NCBI RefSeq assembly: GCF_029892965.1
Contig: NZ_JARXWN010000001.1
Location: 1 to 64,000, forward strand
Length of the DNA stretch: 64,000 bases
Direction of reading: 5' to 3'
DNA from: Dysgonomonas sp. PF1-14
GTDB taxonomy: Bacteria; Bacteroidota; Bacteroidia; Bacteroidales; Dysgonomonadaceae
Shown piece after piece: positions 32,434-35,244 of the stretch (its first letter is position 1; every line of letters begins with the position of its first letter). Below the pieces are notes generated by a model. The model searched no databases. It was not told the DNA's origin and saw only the letters and a program-made list of their open reading frames with translations. Made by a program: the position numbers and the translations under genes.

Positions 32434-32760
32434 CCTCACCCCGACCCTTTCCAAAGTGAGAGGGGGTTGCAAAGCCCAAAAAGGGAACGAGCTTGTAGGG
32501 GCGAACCCATGTGTTCGCCCGAAGATCAAATAAACGGGCAGACACGTAGGTCAGCCCATACGAAAAACAGAAAATAATGCTAGCAAACTAGTAGACTATA
32601 AACTAATAAACTTGTAAGAAATGTGAGGTTTTAGTTAATTAAAATGGAGTGTACTAGTTATAAGTGTACTAGTATACTAGAAAAAAGAAAAACTAGCAAG
32701 CAAGTAAACTTAAAAACTAGTAAACTTGTAACTTATGTCGGGTTTTAGTTAAAATTACAC
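32434..32760 (+). repeat. CTAG-rich repeat region with three copies of a dispersed motif
   Basis: No gene seen. It holds a palindrome GTAGGGGCGAAC...GTTCGCCC (32495-32520), also present in altered form at 56622-56648, and further degenerate copies of the CTAG-rich unit (about 32574-32640 and 32640-32755). Each ends in GGTTTTAGTTAA (32626-32640, 32739-32755), as does the inverted-repeat arm just before. Probably a graveyard of small repeats. Confidence 0.65.
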
Positions 32761-32761
32761 T

Positions 32762-32847
32762 TTTATAAAAAATAATTTCATCCACGCAAAAAGATTGCGC
32801 AACACCTGTTTTACTTTGTATCATCAAACAAGCGATCATTGAATTAC
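32762..32847 (+). promoter_or_regulatory. Upstream block of Y RNA-like gene A (copy of the array promoter region)
   Basis: Related by eye to 33489-33573 and 34634-34716: each has AATAATTT, GCAAAAAGATTGC (or a close variant), a TTTACTTTG box and an ATTGAATTA or TTGAATTA block. The conservation immediately before three tRNA-mimic RNAs argues that this is their promoter region; exact -33/-7 boxes are uncertain. Here the block is cut off from its RNA by a 182-bp insertion. Confidence 0.5.
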
Positions 32848-32850
32848 TAA

Positions 32851-33032
32851 GAGCCTGTTTAAATTTTATTCGTTTAGGTTTTCAGCACTATTTTTGGAAT
32901 GATTTTTTCTTATCTGAAGCGCGAATAGCGGGCTATTCAAGCTGAAGAAAGGGGAAAATCGGACAAAAAGAGACTGAAAATGAACGAAAAAAGAACGATA
33001 ACAAAATGTTTTGGTAAAATTTAAACAGGCTC
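32851..33032 (+). mobile_element. 182-bp MITE-like element
   Basis: Perfect 18-bp terminal inverted repeats (GAGCCTGTTTAAATTTTA and its complement) flanked by direct TAA duplications at 32848-32850 and 33033-33035. TNA duplications are typical of ISL2-group IS5-family transposases. No transposase is encoded. Removing it and one TAA joins the conserved upstream block to RNA A exactly as in the uninterrupted copies at 33574 and 34717. Confidence 0.82.
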
Positions 33033-33049
33033 TAATTATATAAGGAATA

Positions 33050-33207
33050 AACAAGTGCCGTAGATAAGGGTTACTTCGCATTATTAATGCCCGGGTCGTG
33101 GGTTCGATTCCCACCACTCCTACTATTTAAGTTGAAAAACATGAAGGGAGTGTAGCTCAGTGGATAGAGCAGGAACACAGTCCCTTTTCGCCTGTCGCCT
33201 TGTTTTT
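33050..33207 (+). ncRNA. Y RNA-like tRNA mimic A (circularly permuted tRNA fold)
   Basis: Outer stem ACAAG (33051) with CTTGT (ends 33203), then GC/GC and AAGGG/CCCTT around conserved internal-loop strands CGTAGA and TTTTCGCCTGT. Inside, the tRNA order is permuted: T-arm GTGGG-TTCGATT-CCCAC and 3' acceptor CACTCCT come first, then a linker of about 25 nt, the 5' acceptor GGGAGTG, TA and a D-arm GCTCAGTGGATAGAGC. The acceptor has seven pairs. A T-run follows the stem. This is the layout described for bacterial YrlA RNAs, which bind the ring protein Ro60. Family assignment is by structure only. Confidence 0.7.
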
Positions 33208-33211
33208 ATAT

Positions 33212-33401
33212 ACTCCTATAGCTTAAATGGAAAAGCCTGTGGAAAAATTAGATCTTACCACAGAGTGTGCGGATATCCCCGTTGCAGATTGCAGTGGGTA
33301 GATTTTACAGATGCACCGAAATTCGTAACTGTAGAGTAGGGAAGCGTATTTAGAGCCGTACTGCCTGAAAGGGAATATGAGTTCGAGCCTCATTAGGAGT
33401 A
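33212..33401 (+). ncRNA. tRNA-like RNA with a 140-nt insert in place of the anticodon arm
   Basis: Normal-order tRNA ends: acceptor ACTCCTA (33212-33218) pairs with TAGGAGT (33394-33400); spacer TA; D-arm GCTT-AAATGGAA-AAGC with the conserved GG; T-arm ATGAG-TTCGAGC-CTCAT. All pairs are perfect. Between position 26 and the T-arm there are about 140 nt instead of an anticodon arm, starting with a CTGTGG/CCACAG hairpin. No anticodon stem can be identified and no group I intron core was recognised. Starts 9 nt after the end of RNA A, so it may share its transcript. Confidence 0.6.
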
Positions 33402-33488
33402 CAAGATTTTCGTCTTTTCTGTTACCCTTCTGAAACTAATTTATCTATGTAGTAAAAGAGGTCTTTTTGATAAGATGGAATAAATATA
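33402..33488 (+). other. Short spacer within the RNA array
   Basis: AT-rich spacer between the tRNA-like RNA and the second promoter block; no gene, repeat or hairpin of note was found here. Confidence 0.4.
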
Positions 33489-33573
33489 TAATAATTTGCC
33501 GCTGCGCAAAAAGATTGCATCCCACCCTTTTTACTTTGCAGTATCAAATGAAGAGTTCTTTGAATTAAGATAT
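33489..33573 (+). promoter_or_regulatory. Upstream block of Y RNA-like gene B
   Basis: Nearly identical to 34634-34716, upstream of RNA C. It contains TTTGCCGCTGCGCAAAAAG, TTTACTTTGCAGTATCAAAT and TTCTTTGAATTAAGATA just before the RNA. A start site at about 33570 would place TTCTTTG at -7 and ACTTTG near -33. Functional boxes are inferred from conservation. Confidence 0.55.
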
Positions 33574-33706
33574 AAACAAGTGCCGTAGGATAGGGTTACT
33601 TCGCATTAACCGCCCGGGTCGCGGGTTCGATTCCCGCCGTCTTTCGAGACGTAGCTCAGTAGGTAGAGCAGGAAACAGTCCCTTTCCGCCTGTTGCCTTG
33701 TTTTTT
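33574..33706 (+). ncRNA. Y RNA-like tRNA mimic B (acceptor closed by UUCG)
   Basis: Outer stem ACAAG/CTTGT, AGGG/CCCT, conserved strands CCGTAGGA and TTTCCGCCTGTTGCC, then a T6 run. Permuted tRNA module: T-arm GCGGG-TTCGATT-CCCGC, then a 5-bp acceptor CGTCT-TTCG-AGACG closed by a stable UUCG tetraloop, TA, and a D-arm GCTC-AGTAGGTA-GAGC. With the acceptor sealed there is no free 3' end for CCA or an amino acid, so it can only be a mimic. Same layout as published YrlA RNAs. Confidence 0.75.
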
Positions 33707-33709
33707 GAT

Positions 33710-33854
33710 ATCCCTATGGCTTAAATGTGGACGGTCTGTGGTAAAATTGTATTTTACAGATGCATCAAAACTTGTAAGTGTAAAGTAGGGAAACGTATAT
33801 ATAAGGCTATACTATCCGTAGCGGAGAATATGAGTTTGGGCCTCTTTAAGAGTA
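33710..33854 (+). ncRNA. Decayed copy of the tRNA-like insert RNA
   Basis: Aligns with 33212-33401 along its length (CCCTATGGCTTAAATG, TTTTACAGATGCA, GTAGGGAAACGTAT, GAATATGAGTTTGGGCCTC) but lacks about 45 internal nt. The acceptor (ATCCCTA with TAAGAGT) and T-stem no longer pair well. A CTGT...TAAAAT/ATTTTACAG hairpin is kept. Probably a degenerating duplicate. It ends 16 nt before the start codon of the next gene and so also forms that gene's leader. Confidence 0.5.
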
Positions 33855-33870
33855 CAAAAATATATGAATT

Positions 33871-34623
33871 ATGATTAATATTATTGAAAAAAAAATAGAT
33901 CTGATTGAAAATTTCATTGATGAGTATTACTCTAATGGAGGATGTGTAGAATTTGCATTCTATGAGATAAAGGAAAATTATTTAGGTGAAAAGTCGGACG
34001 ATGAATACTTGAATCACCTTATGACTGCTACGCAAATCTTGGAATTGATAAATTATGAAACAAATTTTCATTTCAATAAAGCAAGATATAGTTACAATTG
34101 CATCAAGGGGTTGATAAGTCTGGATGATTTACCAAATAGTACCACTGATTATTCCGATTTGGTTGCAAACGGACGGAAAATTTCTCTGGAAGAATTTTTA
34201 GGCCCCTATTTTGATGTTGAAAAAAATATGCCATATATCAAAGGCCGGAAGGATAACTCTACTTTAAACTCATACTTCAGATACACTGATGATGAATGTT
34301 CCGGGAATGCACTGCCAATGAATGAATTGGTTAAGAAGCATATGGAGAAATTTCCGTCTTGCGACAATGGATTTATCTATGCACTTATACAACCACCCTA
34401 TAGCATGAGTTTTGGTGAGACATTGAAAGACAGGGGAGAATACGTACTCAATTTCTTCGATCTGTTGTTTGATAATCTGGATAAAATAGTGGTCTATAAG
34501 TGGAGTACCGATTGTAATCCATATTTTAATGCAGGCAAAGAATGGTGGGGCGCATACTTTTGGACTGTCTACAATCCGGTGAAGGACATCTATATAGGGA
34601 TAGTAGCATCTACAACAGACTAA
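33871..34623 (+). CDS. Hypothetical protein, possibly immunity-like, embedded in the RNA array
   Basis: 250 aa, no signal peptide or membrane segment. Acidic and aromatic-rich. The C-terminus NPYFNAGKEWWGAYFWTVYN plus IYIGIVASTTD is a pattern I associate with small cytoplasmic proteins of Bacteroidota toxin-immunity islands; this is recollection, not a search result. No promoter is seen between the preceding tRNA-like RNA and the ATG, so it is probably read from the RNA B promoter. No Ro60/TROVE, RtcB or nuclease motif is visible. Function unknown. Confidence 0.65.
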   Translation: MINIIEKKIDLIENFIDEYYSNGGCVEFAFYEIKENYLGEKSDDEYLNHLMTATQILELINYETNFHFNKARYSYNCIKGLISLDDLPNSTTDYSDLVANGRKISLEEFLGPYFDVEKNMPYIKGRKDNSTLNSYFRYTDDECSGNALPMNELVKKHMEKFPSCDNGFIYALIQPPYSMSFGETLKDRGEYVLNFFDLLFDNLDKIVVYKWSTDCNPYFNAGKEWWGAYFWTVYNPVKDIYIGIVASTTD

Positions 34624-34633
34624 AAAAATAAAA

Positions 34634-34716
34634 AATAATTTGCCGCTGCGCAAAAAGGTTGCATTCCGCCCTTTTTACTTTGCAGTATCAAATGAGAGTT
34701 CTTTGAATTAAGATAT
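34634..34716 (+). promoter_or_regulatory. Upstream block of Y RNA-like genes C-F
   Basis: Direct repeat of 33489-33573 with a handful of differences (for example one A fewer in AAATGAGAGTT). It is the only such block before four closely packed RNAs (C to F, gaps of 7-11 nt), which suggests one precursor processed into four RNAs. Confidence 0.55.
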
Positions 34717-34849
34717 AAACAAGTGCCGTAGGATAGGGTTACTTCGCATTAACCGCCCGGGTCGCGGGTTCGATTCCCGCCGTCTTTCGAGATGTAGCTC
34801 AGTTGGTAGAGCAGGAAACAGTCCCTTTCCGCCCGTTGCCTTGTTTTTT
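34717..34849 (+). ncRNA. Y RNA-like tRNA mimic C (near-identical to B)
   Basis: Differs from RNA B at only a few bases: GATG for GACG after the tetraloop, GTTGGTAGAGC for GTAGGTAGAGC in the D-arm and CCCGTTG for CCTGTTG on the 3' strand. T-arm GCGGG/CCCGC and the UUCG-closed acceptor are retained; the last acceptor pair becomes C-A/T-type. The B and C units, including their upstream blocks (about 217 nt), are a direct duplication. Confidence 0.75.
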
Positions 34850-34859
34850 GATATATACA

Positions 34860-34971
34860 AACAAGTGTCGTAAAGAAGAGTTACTTCGGTAGAAATGTTA
34901 TATACATTATTGTGGGTTCAAATCCCACTATCCATTAGGATATTGGCTCTTTTTGCTTGTTACCTTGTTTT
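34860..34971 (+). ncRNA. Y RNA-like tRNA mimic D (D-arm missing)
   Basis: Outer stem ACAAG/CTTGT; the next pair is GT/AC where A-C and F have GC/GC, a compensatory change; then AAGAG/CTCTT. Conserved CGTAAA, TTACTTCG and TTTTTGCTTGTTACC. The module has T-arm GTGGG-TTCAAAT-CCCAC and acceptor TATCC-ATTA-GGATA closed by a 4-nt loop, but the D-arm is absent. A small AATGT/ACATT hairpin precedes the T-arm. Confidence 0.68.
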
Positions 34972-34978
34972 AAGGTAA

Positions 34979-35109
34979 ACAGAATGTCGTAGAAAAGAGA
35001 TACTTCGCTGCCATTAAGGGGGAGGAATAGTGAGACCGTAAAATCGGTGAGACTATCCGGTTCGAATCCGGCTAGCGTGCCCCCGTCTCTGATCGCTTGT
35101 TACTTCTGT
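34979..35109 (+). ncRNA. Y RNA-like RNA E with a different effector module
   Basis: Outer stem changes to ACAGAA/TTCTGT with full complementarity, then GT/AC and AAGAGA/TCTCT; conserved CGTAGA, TACTTCG and TCGCTTGTTAC. The module differs: a GGGGG/CCCCC stem (starting about 35019) encloses a hairpin ATAGT-GAG-ACCG/CGGT-GAG-ACTAT and a T-arm CCGG-TTCGAAT-CCGG, i.e. in normal rather than permuted order. So the Y stem is shared while the cargo structure is not. Confidence 0.62.
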
Positions 35110-35117
35110 GAGAAATA

Positions 35118-35244
35118 ATCAGGTGCCGTAGAAAAGGAGTTCTTCGTTGGCTCCGGCGACACAGGTGCGATTCCTGTCAGGCGAAAGCCGGTAGTTTAGA
35201 GTAAAATACCGGATTGTAAGGCCTTTTCGACTTGTAGCCCTGAT
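35118..35244 (+). ncRNA. Y RNA-like tRNA mimic F (GNRA-closed acceptor)
   Basis: Outer stem ATCAGG/CCTGAT, again fully compensated against the other copies; GC/GC; AAAGG/CCTTT; conserved CGTAGA, TTCTTCG, TTTTCGACTTGTAGCC. Permuted module: T-arm ACAGG-TGCGATT-CCTGT, short acceptor GGC-GAAA-GCC closed by a GAAA tetraloop, then an extended D-arm CCGGTA-(13 nt)-TACCGG. Last member of the array. Confidence 0.68.

Follow-up and report, generated by a model that had tools for sequence, protein, structure and literature searches.

What are the six related RNAs that lie in a row on the first contig of Dysgonomonas sp. PF1-14, and which cellular machinery could they serve? The window analyzed here is a 64,000-nucleotide stretch (positions 1 to 64,000 of contig NZ_JARXWN010000001.1, assembly GCF_029892965.1), and sequence reading, repeat finding and stem pairing place six copies of one RNA stem, A to F, all on the forward strand between positions 33050 and 35244. 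The original prediction, made from the sequence alone, had read this array as a set of Y RNAs, a class that partners the ring protein Ro60 (Rsr). We consider it likely that A-F are indeed Y RNAs that partner the Ro60 of this genome, sharing one Ro-docking stem with differing modules inside it, and that the set probably consists of exchangeable adaptors. Below, G000 denotes the genome of the window (49 contigs, with A-F on contig C1), other G numbers the compared genomes, and L numbers the loci or stretches examined.

The shared stem is marked by an ungapped 5' strand of 23 nt, TGYCGTARNNNARRRNTWCTTCG, which all six copies match with 0 mismatches, confirming the near-constant 5' strands first described at these places. 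At up to one mismatch the window has these six occurrences and no others, and 100 dinucleotide shuffles gave none. This fixed-length motif was used in place of a loose-mismatch regular expression, which gave many chance matches. The 3' strands of A-F resemble CGCCTGTCGCC, after which comes a sequence complementary to the outer 5' stem, and stem pairing recovers the compensated outer pairs noted at the outset (ACAAG/CTTGT, ACAGAA/TTCTGT, ATCAGG/CCTGAT), which are intact in all six copies. Among relatives, 468 of 494 motif matches had a 3' strand at a score of 18 or more, as opposed to 30 of 494 controls with a tail taken from elsewhere in the same locus; three of 497 matches were left out as their tail was too short, as were the 26 of 494 with a stem score below 18, and rows repeating the G010 or G013 contigs (L097, L117, L144 and L163) were dropped here and are still counted among the 121 stretches described below. 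With the 3' site picked without the outer stem, at least five of six outer pairs formed in 368 of 494 cases, compared with a mean of 99 and a maximum of 121 over 200 partner swaps. Compensatory variation in homologous loci, which the original prediction had named as a check, is therefore present. The stem has the form of a Ro-type basal helix with conserved internal-loop strands, and it would be the part that Ro60 binds.

In support of such a partnership, a genome-wide search, another check named with the original prediction, found a single TROVE protein in G000, encoded on contig C21 (TROVE PF05731, E 1.6e-32; vWA_Ro60 PF25045, E 7.5e-7), which places A-F at least 60 kb from this rsr gene if the contigs adjoin. 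Two further RNAs with the motif flank rsr itself: directly past its 3' end is a mini RNA (L003:4091, one mismatch), and on its upstream side is a long RNA (motif at L003:6722). Counting the six on C1, at least eight Y RNAs are thus present in the genome. RtcB is encoded about 3.3 kb from rsr, with NYN/OST-HTH and ankyrin genes between them, and the genome also holds a PNPase gene. Across genomes the motif and Ro60 occur together. Within the family (101 genomes), the exact motif was found in all five genomes with TROVE (4 to 7 copies each) and in none of the 96 without it. A draw of 393 genomes from the order contained TROVE in five, and four of these (G433, G291, G482 and G000) had the motif near TROVE at up to one mismatch. 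In a draw of 395 genomes from the phylum, 28 had TROVE and 11 had the exact motif (7 of the 28 with TROVE and 4 of the 367 without). Finally, a collection scan with a tighter motif gave at least 118 stretches (76 of the 80 titles listed are Bacteroidota, judged by name), which with three viral ones make 121; these were picked by motif, with TROVE presence not selected for, and a TROVE frame was found in 100 of the 121, that is, among the matches listed plus the three viral stretches.

Bacterial Y RNAs are best known as one or two RNAs per species, and the array had been judged atypical both for its six copies and for its position away from rsr. The second half of that judgment stands and the first does not. 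At up to two mismatches, the 97 genomic stretches with TROVE held one motif in 4 cases, two in 12, three in 26, four in 20, five in 19, six in 9, seven in 3 and eight in 4, so that 65 of the 97 hold three to five; these counts are conditional on motif selection, and the majority of the stretches are truncated at 8 kb. To find several Y RNAs at one locus is thus usual in the Bacteroidota stretches examined, and the distance from rsr is the unusual feature. Among the viral contigs, L186 and L187 have TROVE together with several Y motifs, and L188, part of a 235-kb contig, has a Y motif and no TROVE within the stretch examined.

What differs among the six RNAs is the module that the stem encloses. 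In A (33050-33204) this is a tRNA cut open at the anticodon, with the T-arm first, then the acceptor (CACTCCT/GGGAGTG) and then the D-arm, and the same anticodon-cut module is found in B (33574-33703) and in C (34717-34846), which is near-identical to B (98% over 160 nt). The original prediction had extended this description to D and F. For F (35118-35244), which has orthologues in G010, G013, G015 and G018, it fits in part: by our reading, F is of the anticodon-cut type, though its T-arm has an altered loop, its acceptor is 3 bp long and its D-arm is weak. For D (34860-34969) we reject it, as D is best understood as a worn relative of the D-loop-cut RNAs L019:8274, L020:8712, L064:4454 and L065:10327. 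It sits in the array where L019:8274 and L020:8712 sit, an anticodon-arm-like hairpin precedes its T-arm, the acceptor is short and the D-arm is lost (fold z -3.41). Intact D-loop-cut RNAs (for instance, L143:5442 and L019:8274) run from the 3' half of the D-arm through the anticodon-arm hairpin, T-arm and acceptor to the 5' half of the D-arm, and this order of parts means that the Ro stem exits from the D-loop. The point at which the stem joins the tRNA-like part thus varies, from the anticodon (A, B, C) to the D-loop (relatives of D) and an acceptor-side pseudoknot (E, below).

We sorted the 468 inserts by type and applied the same sorting to shuffled inserts as a control. Anticodon-cut modules made up 139 (0 shuffled), modules with a T-arm and no recognized D-arm 103 (5 shuffled) and the E type 56 (0 shuffled), followed by D-loop-cut (14), long 23S-like (12), both patterns (4) and T-arm only (3), each with 0 among the shuffled inserts. 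Fourteen of the 27 listed inserts longer than 140 nt are visibly two neighboring Y RNAs falsely joined through the wrong 3' strand (C and D of the window included); they remain within the 468, and the type counts for these are unreliable. The acceptor strands of anticodon-cut modules formed at least five of seven pairs in 129 of 135 cases, against a permuted mean of 37 and maximum of 51, in a test that used an earlier sorting whose 143 rows include two D-loop-cut RNAs (L019 and L020). tRNA matches also fall within Y RNAs at L181:1565-1632 and L146:2175-2249, and four further matches in L181:176-1632 look like separate tRNA genes. At L020:9744 (G010), a motif with three mismatches and a T-arm-like piece, with no clear 3' stem, is possibly a decayed Y RNA.

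Permuted tRNA genes occur in some algae and archaea, and A-C do hold acceptor, T-arm and D-arm in permuted order, as would precursors of working tRNAs in which the outer stem merely joins the halves. It would seem extremely improbable that this is their function. These RNAs have no anticodon arm and instead bear a Ro-type stem with conserved internal-loop strands; that stem is the conserved part, it also closes minis with no tRNA inside, and it tracks TROVE. Further, D, E, F and the long types are unlike a working tRNA, and ARAGORN finds no tRNA gene in the window. Two of the module types bear closer description.

E (34979-35109) belongs to the GGGGAGGAA type, a tRNA-like module in normal order with a T-arm and a pseudoknotted acceptor and without a D-arm. 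In the alignment of 56 E-type sequences from 56 loci (A1), GGGAGGAA is invariant and the T-loop TTCRA nearly so. The structure, composed of the outer stem, a second helix, a long arm, the T-arm and the pseudoknot, is paired in 95.2% of cells, and 23 of its 31 pairs have changed on both sides, which extends the compensatory variation to this type. None of 500 shuffles equaled any of five measures, and every slide scored lower. The variable helix of the pseudoknot is the weakest element, being 76.4% paired across the alignment. When the helix was anchored by position, all three of its pairs formed in 49 of 56 sequences in a partner-swap test, compared with a permuted mean of 25.5 and maximum of 34. 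The GGGG/CCCC helix is almost constant and consequently supplies no covariation evidence.

The long RNA upstream of rsr (L003:6517-6730 on C21) represents another type, with relatives in 11 other loci. In L085 (5999-6226), 33 of 33 nt of the module are identical to the 23S rRNA of its own genome (positions 1936-1968 of locus L189, E 8e-15), and the identity spans 27 of 27 nt in L167 (2732-2951) and L174; L003 keeps only 11 nt of this segment and L146 keeps 10 nt. We take the segment to run from the loop of helix 69 to helix 70. The remainder of the long module has no match to 23S rRNA beyond short pieces. A 23S rRNA segment inside a Y RNA provides a testable link to ribosomal RNA handling.

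Several observations weigh against the assignment of A-F to Ro60. In the family, one or two matches with a single mismatch turn up in 12 of the 96 genomes that lack TROVE, which is about the rate of a reversed-pattern control. In the order, G156 has TROVE and no motif within three mismatches across the 15.9 kb examined. In the phylum, the exact motif is missing from 21 of the 28 TROVE genomes and present in 4 of the 367 without TROVE; the exact search undercounts, as G544, among the 21, has TROVE and four adjoining motifs with one to two mismatches. Of the motif-selected stretches, 21 of 121 show no TROVE, some since the stretch is cut. The module sorting left 63 of 468 inserts as 'other' (386 shuffled), in which a recognizable T-arm is absent, and 74 as minis of less than 45 nt (77 shuffled), a length class and hence no test. 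Folding of single sequences gave z-scores of -0.79 (A), -0.85 (B), -0.73 (C), -3.41 (D), +0.64 (E) and -0.88 (F), and we rejected folding energy as support for A-F since these values are mostly near zero (-2.09 for RNA G, described below). The minimum-energy folds recover the T-arm, acceptor and D-arm of B and C and hairpins of D; the fold of F differs from the arrangement read, the acceptor of A appears in the centroid only, and the folding program cannot represent the pseudoknot of E. Because single-sequence folding gives little support, the evidence for the structures of A-F is comparative.

The known YrlA family of Rfam (RF02553) raises a related difficulty. The covariance search proposed with the original prediction did match B (42.2 bits, E 2.5e-7), C (41.6 bits, E 3.8e-7) and A (35.7 bits, E 1.8e-5), all below the gathering score of 69 bits. 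That score was reached by no Y RNA of the window, nor by any in four order members and 18 additional loci. Also, the bacterial Y motif, which we take to be GNCGAANG, is replaced in A-F by GYCGUAR. The Rfam alignments are good over the T-arm, acceptor and D-arm and poor over the basal stem, and we read this misfit as probably due to a different distance between stem and T-arm. As the best YrlA score of 42.2 bits is below the gathering score, A-F are filed in the wider Y RNA class and not under RF02553. The co-occurrence with TROVE in the family (5 of 5 versus 0 of 96), together with these matches of B, C and A below the gathering score, supports the original reading of the array as Y RNAs.

The array holds the six Y RNAs as predicted and, overlooked at the time, a seventh RNA and a copy of it. 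RNA G (33211-33404, forward strand) lies between A and B, and H (33708-33857, forward strand), between B and C, is a worn copy of G (77% over 107 nt). G is not a Y RNA: it is tRNA-like in normal order, where a 7-bp acceptor and a D-arm are followed by a hairpin, a structured insert closed by a 6-bp helix, then a small hairpin and the T-arm. In alignment A2, the share of paired cells is 98.3% for the acceptor (helix 1), 98.0% for the D-arm (helix 2) and 98.8% for the T-arm (helix 10), and in place of the 7-nt anticodon loop and short variable region of a tRNA it has a long-loop hairpin and an insert of about 120 nt. A profile search found G in 17 of 129 stretches (the window and 16 others, E 3e-34 or better), and in all 17 G shares its strand with the nearest Y motif, from which it is separated by 131 nt to 4.1 kb; in L079, L080 and L082 it precedes the TROVE frame by about 50-100 nt. 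In the alignment of the 17 sequences, 96.5% of the cells of 43 pairs are paired, 31 of the 43 pairs have changed on both sides, and covariation is 0.580 against 0.235 shuffled and at most 0.114 slid, the structure having been derived from this same alignment, which favors it over the slides. The model R1 gives G of the window 188.8 bits, with the window copy being part of the model, and gives H 40 bits (at 33648-33857). No Rfam family covers G at E up to 5, and G appears to be an RNA family not in Rfam 15.

The distribution of G speaks to its relation with Ro60. In the phylum draw, with six candidates per genome scored (which makes the count a lower bound and absence weak), at least four of 395 genomes exceeded 170 bits, namely G000 and G544, which have TROVE, and G571 and G575, in which no TROVE was found; only these four were counted, as ordinary pieces of tRNA size can score about 43 bits with R1. 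Within the genus, G is intact in three of the five TROVE genomes (G000, G013 and G018) and was not found in G010 and G015, and among 20 genomes without TROVE only G021 matches, with a copy that seems to be truncated at the 5' end. We rejected a strictly Ro60-bound G on account of the intact copies in G571 and G575; given this distribution, G is linked to Ro60 and not dependent on it. Outside chromosomes, we found no exact match to the G pattern in viral contigs and no match in plasmids. In G575, permuted tRNA-like pieces without the Ro motif follow G (L211:8640-8980) beside 14 tRNA genes, with no TROVE found. In relatives, G belongs to loci of this kind as well, and as the Ro motif is absent from it, a role as substrate mimic or regulator is more likely than one as an Rsr-docked adaptor.

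The layout of the site raises the possibility that it is a degenerate duplication zone, a graveyard of tRNA and Y RNA copies in which only A, E and G still work and the others (B/C, D, F and H) are decaying. Some of its features look that way, as B and C show 98% identity, G has a worn copy in H, D is without its D-arm, and the array and rsr are on different contigs. Nevertheless, we find this improbable, given that the order and types A-D-E-F are retained in G010 and G015, that all five genus members with TROVE have E and F, and that every one of the six RNAs keeps its outer pairs and a motif without mismatch. A repeat of family D3, on the forward strand throughout, lies directly upstream of B (33479-33551, the reference copy) and of C (34623-34695, 92% to the reference copy), and a third copy about 220 nt upstream of A (32759-32831, 63% to the reference copy) is a candidate promoter region. 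As D, E and F trail C at spacings of 8-13 nt, it is likely that C-D-E-F form one transcript. An inverted repeat at 32845-33038 (24-nt arms, 92% complementary, 146 nt between them) separates the upstream repeat from A and looks like a small inserted element. A frame of 250 aa at 33871-34623 lies between B and C, flanked by these near-identical copies, and has no Pfam match.

If A-F are the Y RNAs of this genome, each of them, save the near-identical B and C, would carry a different effector module on a common dock. We hypothesize that Rsr holds the stem and that each module, which resembles part of a tRNA viewed from another side, brings in or gates a different RNA-handling client. Candidate clients would be PNPase, as in the RYPER complex discussed below, enzymes of tRNA modification or repair (for example, the RtcB whose gene is close to rsr), and damaged-tRNA substrates. 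A different use of the same modules would be as decoys that absorb nucleases cleaving tRNA at the anticodon or elsewhere (from phage, from rivals or in the SOS response), with Ro60 keeping them stable or recycling them next to RtcB, a repair ligase. The vicinity of RtcB to rsr would fit this, the variety of modules would suit an arms race, two viral contigs (L186 and L187) carry TROVE with Y arrays, and a role as competitive inhibitor has been proposed for YrlA (PMC7790460). We nonetheless think decoys unlikely, as the anticodon-cut modules, the commonest recognized type, are without an anticodon loop, and the E and 23S-like types look too conserved across families for an arms race.

Extending the adaptor reading, it is possible, and we offer it as a tentative proposal, that the Ro60 of Bacteroidota is the hub of a modular toolkit of RNA mimics, in which one stem set on a tRNA at the anticodon, the D-loop or a pseudoknotted acceptor, or on a mimic of 23S helices 69-70, lets the ring address several RNA enzymes, with G serving the same RNA-repair loci. 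With up to eight Y RNAs per genome in conserved types, the role of the effector module could be compared within one cell, where the dock is the same and the modules differ. There is also medical interest in the RNAs carried by gut-bacterial Ro60 orthologues, because such orthologues, including that of Bacteroides thetaiotaomicron, have been linked to lupus autoimmunity (PMC8319742).

How does this set compare with known systems? In its anatomy G recalls tmRNA, with tRNA ends around a structured insert; it differs in being about 190 nt long and in lacking any covering Rfam match at E up to 5. The YrlA RNAs of Salmonella and others, partners of Rsr/Ro60, share with A-F a Ro-type basal stem with an asymmetric internal loop and, inside it, a tRNA opened at the anticodon with the T-arm first, and by our reading the Rfam basal strand CgaAUGCuuggGgaaCUAcg aligns ungapped with CGUARNNNARRRNUWCUUCG. 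The present RNAs differ from YrlA in occurring several to a genome with differing modules, in joining the tRNA through a D-loop or an acceptor pseudoknot, in including a 23S-like type, in forming an array away from rsr and in scoring below the gathering cut-off. For YrlA and for RYPER, the complex of Rsr, Y RNA and PNPase from Deinococcus radiodurans, it is reported that the basal stem holds Rsr and that the tRNA-like part binds PNPase and is modified by DusA and TruB (PMC8394870); a Ro60 ring with a Y RNA tether, as set out there, is likewise our working model, and G000 has a PNPase gene as well. Like the Salmonella repair operon rsr-yrlBA-rtcBA, G000 has rsr, Y RNAs and RtcB close together, whereas NYN/OST-HTH and ankyrin genes intervene and six of the eight Y RNAs are on another contig. 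A search of titles and abstract openings returned no report of multi-Y arrays in Bacteroidota, and an earlier mention in print is possible. The class to which A-F belong, the Y RNAs, is itself known; what we would call new relative to these systems is the number of Y RNAs per genome, the shifting point at which stem and tRNA join, the E and long types, and RNA G.

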